This document shows positions 13,636 to 18,815 of a stretch of DNA of 54,772 bases, one piece after another. Source of the stretch: Fibrobacter sp. UWR4 (lineage in GTDB: Bacteria > Fibrobacterota > Fibrobacteria > Fibrobacterales > Fibrobacteraceae); assembly GCF_003149045.1 (NCBI RefSeq), contig NZ_QGDU01000026.1, forward strand, positions 1 to 54,772, written 5' to 3'. Position 1 is the stretch's first letter. Each line of letters begins with the position of its first letter. The position numbers were made by a program, and so were the translations under genes. A model generated the notes under the pieces. The model did not search any database. It saw nothing but the letters and a program-made list of their open reading frames with translations, and was not told the DNA's origin.

Positions 13636-14937
13636 TTAAAATTCCCACTTGGTCCCGAGACGCAGTTTCGCAGTTGTACTGAATCGGGAATAAACCCTTT
13701 CGTACTTTTCAGGAAGGCTGTAGATTCTAAATACACCCTCCAGCCCTAAATAAAGTTCCATAAGTCCCATATTCCAGGAAGCCATACCGTTCCATACAGA
13801 CGTCAGTTTGGAAATATTCTCATAATCGGCATCAGCCCCGTCCACGACAAAGCTATAGAAGAGATTCAGTTTCGTTTCCAGGACAATCCCGTTCCTGAAT
13901 CGGTACTGAGCGCGAGCCCTGAGGGAAGGGCCAAACCATTTCGTCCAGTAGTAAACAGGCTTCACCTTTATTTCGGACAGAAGCTTTTCATAATGGCTGA
14001 CCCAATTCAGGGAATCCACTGTGGCAATATTCCAGCTATAGCACTGTTCCCCATAGGTTTCCAGGCACTCCTCAAATGGATTTCCGCTGCCACCATAATT
14101 TTTCATTTCGGCTTCCACGGCATCCAGAGCCTCGTCAAAACGAGTCATGTAGCTACTGTAATCAAATGCAGAATCAACCTCAAGCCTTGGGCCTACCATC
14201 AGGGAGAAGCCAAAGCCATAGGTACTGGTCCTGCGCCAAGTGCCATAAAGCGCTAAGGACATAGGACCAGAGACATCATCGTAGGCCCAAAAAGCAACAC
14301 CGAACTGATGTTTATTTCGTTTCAGGAAATTGTATTCCAGCCACGAAAAAAAGGCGGGGATTAAATTTTCCTGCTGATAGACATTCAAGTCCACGCCCAC
14401 ATCCAAAAGCAACGAACTGGAGACCAGGGTATATTCAAGCCCTATCGTACCCTTCCAATCATTGGTATCCAGGGCAGGCATGTCATCATTATAGAAGTTC
14501 ACATCACCCGTAATGTTCAAGCCGAGAGAATGAATCAAGTCTCCAGAAGAGTAATCCAGGAAAGCAGAGATGCCCCCCTGCAAGGCGGATCCATAATCGG
14601 ACTTGTCGCCAGAGGCGGAGTAGTACAGTCCCACAGCACCAAGATCCCCCTGAAAACGGTAGGAAAAGGATTTCTCCGGAGATTCCTCGGTACCTTTTCG
14701 TAGAGTCTCGTGACGTTTATTCGCAGGAACGTCTAGCGCTTCATAATATTCGTTGAGGATTTCCTGAATTTCCTCAGTATATTCCCCGCCCATATTTAGG
14801 GCTTCTTCAAAAGTTCTGATTGCAAGGGGAACATCACCGGACGCTTCCGCCTGCATAGCGCGGAAGTACGCGGCCTCCTGGGTTTCAGCAAAGAGGGTCG
14901 CGGAAAGCAATAGAAGAACTATCGCTATCCGATACAT
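13636..14937 (-). CDS. Predicted outer-membrane beta-barrel protein with N-terminal TPR-like segment
   Basis: A 433-residue protein. A signal peptide (residues 1-17, ending LFAE) precedes one or two TPR-like helical pairs (YFRAMQAEASGDVPLAIRTF) to about residue 70. The rest alternates short aromatic-bounded beta-strands and ends in ...LRLGTKWEF, the aromatic C-terminal residue typical of outer-membrane barrels. The arrangement recalls surface-lipoprotein assembly modifier proteins (TPR then barrel), but I would not claim that family. The ATG at 14937 is chosen because it overlaps the stop of the preceding gene (TGATG), so the two are translationally coupled. Both lie under the sigma-54 promoter at 15409-15423, so expression probably responds to the neighbouring activator. 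Confidence 0.8.
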   Translation of the reverse strand: MYRIAIVLLLLSATLFAETQEAAYFRAMQAEASGDVPLAIRTFEEALNMGGEYTEEIQEILNEYYEALDVPANKRHETLRKGTEESPEKSFSYRFQGDLGAVGLYYSASGDKSDYGSALQGGISAFLDYSSGDLIHSLGLNITGDVNFYNDDMPALDTNDWKGTIGLEYTLVSSSLLLDVGVDLNVYQQENLIPAFFSWLEYNFLKRNKHQFGVAFWAYDDVSGPMSLALYGTWRRTSTYGFGFSLMVGPRLEVDSAFDYSSYMTRFDEALDAVEAEMKNYGGSGNPFEECLETYGEQCYSWNIATVDSLNWVSHYEKLLSEIKVKPVYYWTKWFGPSLRARAQYRFRNGIVLETKLNLFYSFVVDGADADYENISKLTSVWNGMASWNMGLMELYLGLEGVFRIYSLPEKYERVYSRFSTTAKLRLGTKWEF

Positions 14938-15374
14938 CAATGAGAGAGATCGCCCCAGCCTGGACTCTGTCTCGGATTCCCCCACCAATGCGGCGGAGGA
15001 GGAGGCATTATATGAGGAGTATTCCATTCCTTTTCAGGAGTTTTTTCTCTCTCACGGGGCTGGACTTTTTCTGCACGTTCCCCTTCGATGCGATTCCTTT
15101 CGTTACGAGTTTCGGTAACGTTCTGGCGAATGGACTGTTTTTCTGCAGCGGAGCTATTACGTAAATCAGAAAGAATCTGACGACGGGCCTCACGGCGTTC
15201 CGCACGCATTTTCTGCCATTCCTCGCTATCTTTAGCACTTAAATCAGGAGTTCCTCGGGAAACTTCAGATCTTTCAGCAGGGGTCGGGACAACTGACTCC
15301 GGACGCAAAGAAGACTGGCCTGCAAATGCCATTGCAGCAGCCAGCATCACCAATGTGAAAATATTCTTCTTCAT
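14937..15374 (-). CDS. Small secreted Arg/Glu-rich protein with proline-rich end
   Basis: A 145-residue protein I do not recognise. A signal peptide (MKKNIFTL... AFAGQ, residues 1-20) is followed by a highly charged, probably helical region (about 50-110, many Arg and Glu) and a C-terminus with MPPPPPHWWGN. The frame extends six codons further, but MKKN at 15374 is the natural export start. It is the first gene after a near-perfect sigma-54 promoter and shares a one-base overlap with the beta-barrel gene, so the two proteins probably act together in the periplasm or outer membrane. The charged helix resembles periplasmic stress or chaperone proteins only in a general way; no function can be assigned. 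Confidence 0.75.
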   Translation of the reverse strand: MKKNIFTLVMLAAAMAFAGQSSLRPESVVPTPAERSEVSRGTPDLSAKDSEEWQKMRAERREARRQILSDLRNSSAAEKQSIRQNVTETRNERNRIEGERAEKVQPREREKTPEKEWNTPHIMPPPPPHWWGNPRQSPGWGDLSH

Positions 15375-15408: not shown

Positions 15409-15423
15409 GCAACATCCGTGCCA
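15409..15423 (-). promoter_or_regulatory. Sigma-54 promoter (-24/-12)
   Basis: On the minus strand the sequence TGGCACGGATGTTGC matches the sigma-54 consensus TGGCACG-N4-TTGC at every specified base, with the exact GG-N10-GC spacing. Transcription should start near 15397, giving a leader of about 23 bases before the ATG at 15374. The gene for a sigma-54 activator ends 131 bases upstream. A long palindrome lies between, where an activator site would be expected. Confidence 0.85.
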
Positions 15424-15432
15424 GAGTATCCT

Positions 15433-15474
15433 TTTAGGCTAATAATACGTTTTTTTGACGTACTTTAGCCTAAA
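15433..15474. promoter_or_regulatory. Palindrome upstream of the sigma-54 promoter, candidate activator site
   Basis: A two-part inverted repeat: outer arms of 10 bp (TTTAGGCTAA at 15433-15442 and its complement at 15465-15474) and inner arms of 5 bp (TACGT, ACGTA). The centre is about 57 bases upstream of the predicted start site. It suits a dimeric sigma-54 activator, though such sites are more often 80-150 bases away. It could instead be a transcription-ending hairpin for the activator operon, but no T run follows on the minus strand. Confidence 0.5.
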
Positions 15475-15553
15475 TATACATTAAAACTTTCGTTAACCTC
15501 GGACAAAAAACGGAACCACACGCCCCCATCGGGAGATTTGTTCCCGAAAAAGT

Positions 15554-17008
15554 CTACCCCTTAAAATCCTCCTTCTTCATGCCAAGACGTTCCATGATTT
15601 CGCGAAGGACCTTACGGTCTATTCCCAAAATGGAGGATGCCAAGGTCATGTTGGCGTTACTATCCCTCATGGCCCTGGAAATCACTTCACGGTCTACCGC
15701 CTCGCGGGCTTCCTTCAAGGTACGGGGAGATTCCTTGGCCTGGGATTGCATATCGTCCAGTCCCAAGTCCTTGGGCTGGATTACCCCATGAACCGCCTGG
15801 ACAAGGGCCTTCTGGATTTTATTTTCCAGTTCACGGACATTGCCCGGCCAATAATAACCTAACAAAGCTTTTTCCGCATTACGGCTCATGCGGTACTTGC
15901 CACGGCCGTACTCCGCACCATAACGCTTGATGAATTCTTCCGCCAGAAGCACCACATCCTGACCACGCTCGCGAAGAGGCGGAAGGTAAAGAGGCATCAC
16001 CTGAATTCTGAAGTACAAGTCCTCACGGAACTTCTTTTCCTTGACGGCTTCTTCCAAATCCACATGGGTGGCACTGATGACACGGACGTTCACAGGAATT
16101 TCACGATTGTCACCTACGCGGGTAATATGTTTTTCCTGAAGGACACGAAGGAGTTTCACCTGCATGTTCATGGGAAGTTCGCCAATTTCATCCAGGAAGA
16201 TGGTACCACCATCGGCCTCCTCGAAGAAGCCCCTGCGATTTTCAATAGCCCCCGTAAAAGATCCCTTGGCATGACCAAATAGCAAGGATTCCATCAGATG
16301 TTCAGGAATGGCACCGCAGTTTACCGCCACAAAAGGCTTGTCCCCACGGGGGCTGTTCCTATGGATGTAGCGGGCAACCACTTCCTTGCCGGATCCCGTT
16401 TCACCACGAATAATCACGGGAAGGGGAAGCGGCGCTAGTTTATCTGCAAGAGCCGTCAGGTCAGCCATCACCTGGCTGGAATAGACGATGTTATCCTTAC
16501 GGACCACATTCTTTAGGACATCCAGGGATTCCTTATCCCTCAGGCGGTCAAATACGGAGAACGCCACCTTTTCACAGACCGCAACGAAATTATCGAACAG
16601 GCTGCTATCCTCATCCGTGAAAGGGTCCTCACGGGCGGCACGCTGAAGATAGAGATAACCTTCCTCGGATTCCGTGGTACGGAAAGGAGAGACCATAATG
16701 CTAGTCAGTTGATTCTGCACGATGGACTTGGAAAGATCCGCAGAGTCATCGTCCAGCTGGTTCCATACCACGGCACGCTTTTCCGATTTTGCCAAACGTA
16801 CAGCGGAAATGGAAATGGAAACGTTTTCCGGCTGGCTGAAATGCAGGGGATTTTCACCGCCAATTTCCAGGACGGCGGCATCCGCATGAAGTACGTCCTT
16901 GGCAACTTCCAGGATCTTATTGAAAAGGGATTCCGGCTGGTCTTCATCCAGAAGGATTTTAACCACATCCAGCATTTTTTCCGTGGCAAGCATGGATTCC
17001 GATTTCAT
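15554..17008 (-). CDS. Sigma-54-dependent activator with GAF-like sensor
   Basis: A 484-residue enhancer-binding protein that uses ATP to open sigma-54 promoters. Residues about 10-160 form a GAF-like sensor domain, with no receiver, so it is not a classical two-component regulator. The AAA+ domain has Walker A GETGSGKE at 202-209, a sigma-54 contact loop GSFTGA at 249-254 (Ser in place of the more common Ala), Walker B FLDE near 271 and the arginine-finger region FREDLYFRI. The last 45 residues are a Fis-type helix-turn-helix. It starts two bases after the stop of the kinase-like gene, so it is the last gene of that operon. A matching sigma-54 promoter lies just downstream. Confidence 0.93.
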   Translation of the reverse strand: MKSESMLATEKMLDVVKILLDEDQPESLFNKILEVAKDVLHADAAVLEIGGENPLHFSQPENVSISISAVRLAKSEKRAVVWNQLDDDSADLSKSIVQNQLTSIMVSPFRTTESEEGYLYLQRAAREDPFTDEDSSLFDNFVAVCEKVAFSVFDRLRDKESLDVLKNVVRKDNIVYSSQVMADLTALADKLAPLPLPVIIRGETGSGKEVVARYIHRNSPRGDKPFVAVNCGAIPEHLMESLLFGHAKGSFTGAIENRRGFFEEADGGTIFLDEIGELPMNMQVKLLRVLQEKHITRVGDNREIPVNVRVISATHVDLEEAVKEKKFREDLYFRIQVMPLYLPPLRERGQDVVLLAEEFIKRYGAEYGRGKYRMSRNAEKALLGYYWPGNVRELENKIQKALVQAVHGVIQPKDLGLDDMQSQAKESPRTLKEAREAVDREVISRAMRDSNANMTLASSILGIDRKVLREIMERLGMKKEDFKG

Positions 17009-17010
17009 AA

Positions 17011-18126
17011 TTACTCCTTTGACGGCGTCGGCGAATTTTGCAGCAAGTGGCTTCTGGAATTATCCAAGATGACCTTAGCGGTATCATCCACATTGGGAGT
17101 TTTCGTTCCGAGAGCAAAAACAAGGGCGATTGCCAAAACAAAAATCCCTACAGCACCTAAAATTGCAATTTTTAGGGTATTTCCGTGCTTTTTTGGAGAA
17201 AAATTTTTGAAGGGAAACTGGGGTTCTCCAGCGCATTCCAGATTGTCCGAGACATTTTGCCCCGCTTTTCCAATCATGGGTGTGAGTTCTATCAAATATT
17301 TTTTCAAGCAGCCTGAGAGGGCGACATCTCCCCCGCCAACACAGGACAACGCGATTTCCAGAAGTTCATCCAGTTCCTCAAAGTCATCAGCACGATCTTC
17401 CATATTGCAGGAAAGCGTAGCATCCCAGATAGGTTCCAGAGCGGAAATTTCTTCCGGGGAAAGTTTTCCCGAAAGGAAAAGCTTTTCCGACACCTTGGAC
17501 GTTTCCTGTCTTGAATTTTCGGAAGCGAACTGATCGAAGCTGGAGGCTTCCACCAGGTTTTCACCGGCAATCCAGCGGAACAACAGCATTCCCAAACTGA
17601 AGAGGTCGCTCTTTTCGTCGGGAGCCTTCCCCTGGAATCTTTCGGGGGCGGCATAAGCCAATGCACCCGGACCTGTAATTCCCCAGTCGATGAGAACCGT
17701 CTGAAGTTCCGTGCAGTCCTTTCGTTCCTTAACGGTAAAGATGATGTTGGAGGGATTTAAATCCCCATGAGAGGAACCGACCTTGATGACCTTCTGTAAG
17801 GACGAAACGACCTGACGCATGGCGTACAGCGCTACGGCCACGGGCATTTCCTTCAAGCGATCAGAAGAAATTCCCTCCACGTAGTCATAGAGCTGGTAGG
17901 GACTATTTTCATAAATACCGAACTCCCTTATCCTGCAGATTCCATCATCCTTGATTCTCTGGATGATTTCAACAAGTTCCGCATGGAAAGGCTGTTTAAA
18001 CCACTTTAGGGTAAGTCGTTCGCCACTGTCAAGACAAAGTAAGTAAACGTCGGCCTCGCCTCCTTGACGCAGGAGGACTCCGTTCCTTGCAGAACTGAGC
18101 AGAGTTACTTTCTCGGGAGCACTCAT
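17011..18126 (-). CDS. Membrane-anchored Ser/Thr protein kinase-like protein
   Basis: A 371-residue protein with a eukaryotic-type kinase fold (about 15-260), a single membrane segment (318-340) and a 30-residue periplasmic tail. Visible kinase features are a Gly-rich loop (RQGGEADVYL, 20-29), the ATP lysine K41, HGDLNPSN (catalytic D122 and N127), DWG in place of DFG (D147), AYAAPERF and DEKSDLFSLG. HGD and DWG replace the usual HRD and DFG, but the key charged residues remain, so activity is plausible. It overlaps the TPR lipoprotein stop by four bases (ATGA) and is followed two bases later by the sigma-54 activator. I infer that it modifies or controls that activator. Confidence 0.87.
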   Translation of the reverse strand: MSAPEKVTLLSSARNGVLLRQGGEADVYLLCLDSGERLTLKWFKQPFHAELVEIIQRIKDDGICRIREFGIYENSPYQLYDYVEGISSDRLKEMPVAVALYAMRQVVSSLQKVIKVGSSHGDLNPSNIIFTVKERKDCTELQTVLIDWGITGPGALAYAAPERFQGKAPDEKSDLFSLGMLLFRWIAGENLVEASSFDQFASENSRQETSKVSEKLFLSGKLSPEEISALEPIWDATLSCNMEDRADDFEELDELLEIALSCVGGGDVALSGCLKKYLIELTPMIGKAGQNVSDNLECAGEPQFPFKNFSPKKHGNTLKIAILGAVGIFVLAIALVFALGTKTPNVDDTAKVILDNSRSHLLQNSPTPSKE

Positions 18127-18815
18127 AGTCTACCCGATTGAACCAGGACTTTCAGGGAATCTTCGGCAACCTTCGTCCAATGAGCAAGTACGCGATCGTC
18201 AGGCAAGGCCTCGTGCCCCAGGGACCAAATATCCCAGGCGGATTCCACATCACCTTCGTTCCAGTAACTGTTGCCCAGGTTGACGTAGGCAGAAGCAAAT
18301 TTCGGTTCCTTGGTCACGACATAGATAAAGATTTTCCTGGCATCTTCAGATTGTCCACGATGGTCCAGAATAAGAGCCTTCAGGTTCATACTGAAAAAGT
18401 TCAGACTATCCAGGTGGATAGAGCGGTCCAGCAAGGGAACCACGTCTGTTTTGGGACTCTTATCCAACGTAGCTCGCGCCAGATAAAAAAGGCTGTTGGA
18501 GAAATTACCGTTAATGCTACCGGTCTCATCCACTCGTGAAAGAATTTCAAATTCCTGGACAGCACGTTCCCACAGTTCATAGGTGGGATTTTTCAAATGT
18601 TCGTGATTTTCGGCCACGGCATAATAGGCAAGCGCCAGACCATAACGTGCATCACGATGTCCCGGATCCTGGTCAAGGGCCCTGGAAAAGTTGGAAATGG
18701 CCCGGTTGTAATCTCCAATGCGCAAGGCAACATTGCCCCTGTTGACATCATCGTCCACACAGGCGCAAAGGCACAAGGCAACACAAAGAAACAGAGCTTT
18801 CCATAAACTCTTCAT
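18123..18815 (-). CDS. TPR lipoprotein
   Basis: A 230-residue lipoprotein: the signal peptide ends in the lipobox LCAC (about residues 16-19) and the next residues are acidic (VDDD), which in enteric bacteria would favour inner-membrane retention. The mature part is made of tetratricopeptide-like helix pairs (NRGNVALRIGDYNRAISNFSRA-type units, then ARYGLALAYYAV, and further repeats to residue 215), which serve protein-protein contact. It is the first gene of a three-gene operon with the kinase-like protein and the sigma-54 activator. A periplasmic sensing or scaffolding role for the kinase is inferred. The upstream 80 bases contain a GCTC-AAAT-GAGC palindrome but no convincing promoter. Confidence 0.85.
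   Translation of the reverse strand: MKSLWKALFLCVALCLCACVDDDVNRGNVALRIGDYNRAISNFSRALDQDPGHRDARYGLALAYYAVAENHEHLKNPTYELWERAVQEFEILSRVDETGSINGNFSNSLFYLARATLDKSPKTDVVPLLDRSIHLDSLNFFSMNLKALILDHRGQSEDARKIFIYVVTKEPKFASAYVNLGNSYWNEGDVESAWDIWSLGHEALPDDRVLAHWTKVAEDSLKVLVQSGRL

Follow-up and report, generated by a model that had tools for sequence, protein, structure and literature searches.

The closest described relatives of the locus reported here are the sigma-54 (RpoN) promoters at large, the sigma-54 control of the bacterial exterior described by Francke et al. (2011, PMC3162934) and the single-target activators of Desulfovibrio vulgaris, where one activator serves one neighbouring operon and GSFTGA is a functional variant of the GAFTGA loop (PMC4641369). 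For this phylum, we found almost nothing on sigma-54 in the literature that we searched, with one passing mention in an F. succinogenes genome paper. Here, we analysed a stretch of 54,772 nucleotides from Fibrobacter sp. UWR4 (the window) and followed up a sigma-54 motif between an activator gene and the gene of a small secreted charged protein (SEC). We consider it very probable that this motif functions as a sigma-54 promoter, that it serves a unit of SEC and an outer-membrane protein and that the adjacent activator most likely drives it, with a putative envelope-sensing operon upstream. The features of the locus are as follows.

13636-14937, minus strand: outer-membrane protein gene, TPR-like helices and 14-strand barrel (AlphaFold2 pLDDT 87)
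14937-15374, minus strand: SEC gene, 145 aa, with signal peptide, RPESxVPTPAE motif and Arg/Glu-rich helix
15397, minus strand: predicted transcript start (+1) from sigma-54 geometry, 12 bases past the -12 C
15409-15423, minus strand: sigma-54 promoter, -24 (TGGCACG) and -12 (TTGC) elements, from an 11/11 consensus match and orthologue conservation
15436-15471, minus strand: imperfect inverted repeat that is predicted to form a hairpin, flanked by the TATATT box and the sigma-54 site
15473-15478, minus strand: TATATT box, 55 bp upstream of the -24 element and possibly the -10 of an additional, housekeeping promoter
15504-15546, minus strand: intrinsic-terminator-like repeat read by eye behind the activator gene, GGAAC...GTTCC and then GTTTTTTG
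15554-17008, minus strand: sigma-54 activator (enhancer-binding protein, EBP) with a weak GAF match, an AAA+ domain and a putative C-terminal Fis-type HTH
17011-18126, minus strand: Hanks-type kinase (Pkinase E 9.6e-11); a transmembrane helix at the C-terminal side is followed by a short tail that ends near LP(T/V)P
18123-18815, minus strand: TPR protein with a lipoprotein-type signal (LCLCACVDDD), in the cluster in relatives

The sigma-54 motif and its genomic setting

Read on the minus strand from 15423 to 15409, the motif is TGGCACG-GATG-TTGC and matches 11 of the 11 specified bases of the sigma-54 consensus, with GG at -25/-24, GC at -13/-12 and 10 bp in between. The reverse complement of 15409-15423 is TGGCACGGATGTTGC; in the minus-strand reading at the motif, TCTGGCACGGATGTTGCGTTT, TGGCACG occupies 15423-15417 and, after 4 bases, TTGC occupies 15412-15409. 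Since the C at -12 is position 15409, the start would fall at about 15397, as in the first-pass annotation, and the predicted leader in UWR4 is ~23 nt. The ATG of the SEC gene (15374-15372) lies 34 bp beyond the motif and 49 bp from its first base. The motif sits in an intergenic gap of 179 bp behind the activator gene, which ends at 15554, and the five genes of the cluster are all co-directional on the minus strand. The first-pass annotation had described a sigma-54 motif with exact GG/GC spacing in this gap, on the same strand as and ahead of a secreted-protein gene and adjoining the gene of a sigma-54 activator. All of this holds, and its reading as a sigma-54 promoter is upheld by the exact motif, rpoN, the activator and the conserved orthologous promoters.

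Loose matches in the window are uninformative, because 15 were observed at up to 2 mismatches and 15.3 are expected from shuffles. The site at 15409-15423 is the window's only exact match, where ~0.03 are expected, and the chance of an exact match on the right strand in the 180-bp gap is ~4e-5. The earlier judgement that a chance match is unlikely is thus borne out, and the orthologous promoters confirm it independently. Likewise, the genome lacking rpoN had been named as a finding that would speak against the promoter; rpoN is encoded (Sigma54_DBD, E 5.6e-48), together with seven strong sigma-54 activators including the one adjoining the motif. This protein has a clear AAA+ domain (Sigma54_activat, E 4.4e-71) with Walker A GETGxGK, Walker B GGTIFLDE and a GSFTGA loop of the GAFTGA type, and a C-terminal HTH_8 match (E 3.5e-4) whose 20.7 bits fall just under the curated cut-off of 22 bits. 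Most of 60 other Fibrobacter genomes encode this activator at 81-95% identity.

Are there further members of the regulon? A genome scan had been proposed for this question. Our scan of the 3.6-Mb genome, a pattern search rather than a weight matrix, returned 19 exact sites, a regulon-like set before nitrogen, chaperone and envelope genes, against ~1.4 expected by chance, a figure scaled from the comparison at up to 1 mismatch (104 matches against 46 for the backward-read control). Most of the 19 are intergenic and aimed at a close start codon. They precede the nitrogen genes for PII, glutamate synthase (GltB) and glutamine synthetase III (GS-III) and the gene of a periplasmic binding protein, all expected sigma-54 targets, as well as those for diaminopimelate epimerase and an LptC-like protein.

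Other exact sites precede unexpected targets, namely Hsp90, GrpE, DnaK, Hsp20 and a small sigma-70-family factor. At dnaK, an 11/11 sigma-54 site stands 73-93 bp before the ATG in all 14 Fibrobacter loci read (L284-L297), and in UWR4 itself exact sites also occur at grpE, hsp20 and hsp90 (chaperone loci L037, L038, L039 and L032). This pattern suggests sigma-54 control of heat-shock chaperones, which have been mentioned as predicted sigma-54 targets (PMC12316311). The gene of the 270-aa sigma-70-family factor has its exact site 51 bp before the ATG (L036, site G000:C5:106316), so placed that a sigma cascade via this factor is possible.

Conservation, spacing and loss of the site

The order lipoprotein, kinase, activator, SEC is kept in all 54 fully read Fibrobacter loci, and the outer-membrane protein was recognised behind SEC in most of them. 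The full order of TPR lipoprotein, kinase, activator, sigma-54 site, SEC and barrel is kept in Fibrobacter and in sister genera of the family. Between activator and SEC, a site scoring at least 9/11 is found in 40 of the 54 loci; its distance from the activator stop drifts from 1 to 247 bp while the site itself stays. On the other side the geometry is fixed: of 29 non-redundant promoters, 26 have the first base of the motif 27 bp from the ATG, and only UWR4 (49 bp), its closest relative (50 bp) and a third (59 bp) deviate. Some of these conservation figures come from loci chosen for having a site, which scoring the ATG-27 position without site selection corrects. There, 35 of 53 orthologues reach at least 9/11, with a mean of 8.3/11 against a background of 2.6, and at other offsets (28, 49, 50 and 59 excluded) no orthologue does. 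The sister genera keep module and site with an ATG spacing of 27, 28 or 29 bp, the motif in genus g5 being degenerate (TGGCATC-N4-TTGT, GC to GT at -12). By this conservation, the motif is under selection.

Since the -12 C is motif position 15, the +1 would be motif base 27, which in most relatives lies one base ahead of the ATG. Sigma-54 starts show the usual scatter, and for most relatives we predict a start 0-2 nt from the start codon, that is, a near-leaderless mRNA. This prediction applies to the relatives and not to UWR4, which belongs to the small exceptional clade (49-59 bp). We counted 83 occurrences of TGGCAYR-N4-TTGC-N12-ATG in 61 genomes, where the control gave 5. Some of the matches lie at other genes (dapF, a circularly permuted ATP-grasp, an acetolactate-synthase-like gene), so that this spacing may be general in these bacteria. 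Some published data sets contain both leaderless transcripts and sigma-54 promoters (PMC3616915, PMC4842269, PMC5243855), and the literature searched yielded no paper devoted to leaderless transcripts from sigma-54 promoters.

The site is missing from 14 of the 54 Fibrobacter loci (one large clade plus one), and these keep activator and target genes, which means that the pairing of activator and promoter is not absolute. Thirteen of the 14 form a group that includes MAGs labelled F. succinogenes, in which the SEC gene lies ~50 bp behind the activator and has an AAGGAG ribosome-binding site. No sigma-54 site of at least 10/11 was found elsewhere in the siteless loci. Thirteen of the 14 genomes have a second SEC copy elsewhere, and 15 of the 17 paralogue loci read carry a sigma-54 site of 10-11/11 ~1 kb upstream, from which we infer that the activator probably kept a related target. 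The site at the paralogue loci fronts the gene of another secreted charged protein. Loss of the site in one clade, with a paralogue downstream of another sigma-54 site, makes a clean example of regulatory rewiring.

Small secreted proteins recur near such sites. In genus g6, another small secreted charged protein (L258-L262) is encoded behind the outer-membrane protein, and a sigma-54 site of its own lies 27 bp from its ATG (28 bp in L262). At four loci (L066, L081, L083, L107), a convergent gene for a Lys/Glu/Arg-rich secreted protein lies close by, with a 10-11/11 site ~55 bp before its ATG. Given the sites in g6 and at the paralogue loci, short, charged, secreted proteins seem to make up the regulon.

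The circuit and competing explanations

SEC begins MKKNIFTLVMLAAAMAFA... at ATG 15374, a signal peptide, and its conserved parts are a RPESSVPTPAE stretch and a WQKMR.ERR.AREQIL helix. Its predicted structure is mostly of low confidence with a single helical region. Among 40 genera of the phylum, the protein was found in 5, which all belong to one family. The ATG of the outer-membrane gene overlaps the SEC stop (TGATG), and we propose that this overlap couples translation of the two proteins. A fold search with the predicted barrel gave the porins CymA and OmpG as the best matches (Z 21.7 and 18.6), and a search for a known family of the outer-membrane protein found none in Pfam or by PDB sequence. 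Upstream, the kinase keeps its GGEA loop, K42, HGD..P.N and D148xG and has one transmembrane helix, and the TPR lipoprotein gene belongs to the cluster at every Fibrobacter locus read and in the sister genera.

The kinase tail carries LP(T/V/I/M)P in 42 of 54 sequences. This LP[TVIM]P resembles the VPTP in the N-terminal part of SEC, a short proline motif common to both. As a guess, kinase tail and SEC might share a partner, e.g. the TPR lipoprotein, and hence provide feedback.

The motif, rpoN, the activator and the family-wide conservation of site and gene order can be read from sequence directly. Building on these, we propose that RNA polymerase with sigma-54 would start at about 15397 and transcribe a two-gene unit of SEC and the outer-membrane TPR-plus-barrel protein, and that the upstream GAF/AAA+/Fis activator, one of seven, most likely drives the promoter. 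Activator, membrane kinase and TPR lipoprotein would be made from one operon, with the kinase and the lipoprotein plausibly sensing the state of the envelope and controlling the activator. We speculate further, and regard it as doubtful, that Fibrobacteraceae fuse sigma-54 promoters to start codons to give leaderless mRNAs, which here would be the output of a new envelope-sensing circuit of lipoprotein, kinase and activator with SEC feedback.

Does all transcription of the unit depend on the sigma-54 site? Of 24 non-redundant gaps that are at least 20 bp long, 22 contain TATATT, where 2.1 are expected from shuffles, and in about half of the set this box lies 51-55 bp upstream of the sigma-54 site. 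The UWR4 hairpin that follows it is stable (-14.2 kcal/mol, z -5.2 against shuffles); in most long-gap relatives a hairpin lies in a similar position with different arm sequences (combined Z -6.2). A housekeeping promoter whose RNA begins in the hairpin would explain both the box and the inverted repeat. It is possible, although we do not expect it, that the box at 15478-15473 yields most of the transcript and that the sigma-54 site adds condition-specific expression only; the box in nearly all long gaps, followed by a position-conserved hairpin, fits such a division, while a consistent -35 element was not seen, and promoters that lie 1-2 bp behind the activator stop do without the box and keep the sigma-54 site. 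That the resemblance to a sigma-54 promoter is fortuitous and without function is highly improbable. The chance level of the loose matches in the window would be in keeping with it, and it is contradicted by the exact match on the correct strand and in the correct place and by the conservation of the site in 40 of 54 orthologues and in sister genera.

A true sigma-54 promoter could also be driven by one of the other six activators, with the adjacent one working elsewhere. We searched the gap for an activator-binding site and found inverted repeats and a conserved AAAAGGA-like block, none of them assignable to the activator. We do not accept the inverted repeat at 15436-15471 as the binding site, since its arms differ from species to species whereas the activator remains ~85% identical. 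It appears to fit better as a hairpin in the RNA of a longer transcript, although strand-specific G-U pairs are present in only a few sequences. A short upstream ORF from an NTG overlapping the -24 element was rejected, having no consistent stop and no maintained reading frame. That none of the elements in the gap could be assigned to the adjacent activator, the number of strong activators in the genome and the retention of the adjacent one at ~86% identity in the clade that lost the site all leave room for another driver. Activator and promoter nevertheless stay adjacent across the family, and the second target copy in 13 of the 14 siteless genomes, mostly with a sigma-54 site upstream, probably supplies a related target where the local site is gone, which makes another driver unlikely in our view. 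We thus retain the adjacent activator as the most likely driver of the promoter.

Comparison with known sigma-54 systems

Slam (DUF560) proteins combine N-terminal TPR-like helices with a 14-strand barrel and share an operon with a small secreted protein. The outer-membrane protein described here has the same layout and a small secreted partner, a likeness that we treat as analogy only: no Pfam or PDB sequence match links the two, and Slam is not among the fold matches listed.

As in the control of the bacterial exterior by sigma-54 (Francke et al. 2011, PMC3162934), envelope genes stand beside an activator at this locus; in contrast, Fibrobacter is unmentioned in that study and the present targets lie outside every Pfam family. 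The pairing of one activator carrying a GSFTGA loop with one neighbouring operon resembles the single-target activators of D. vulgaris (PMC4641369), whereas the activator is here accompanied by a Hanks-type membrane kinase and a TPR lipoprotein instead of a histidine kinase/receiver pair.

In summary, we found a sigma-54 target with good support, set in a regulatory module that is conserved, in a cellulose-degrading phylum. Its interest is raised by the presence of the module across the family, by the fixed distance from promoter to ATG in relatives and by the site loss in one clade. The fixed distance renders leaderless sigma-54 transcription directly testable in these relatives. With its GG and GC elements spaced by 10 bp, a genome that encodes rpoN and activators, and an activator gene adjoining, the locus agrees with sigma-54 promoters in general; it is in most relatives that the arrangement departs from them, the start being predicted at 0-2 nt from the ATG. 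Taken by itself, the promoter is an ordinary and very well supported member of the known sigma-54 class.
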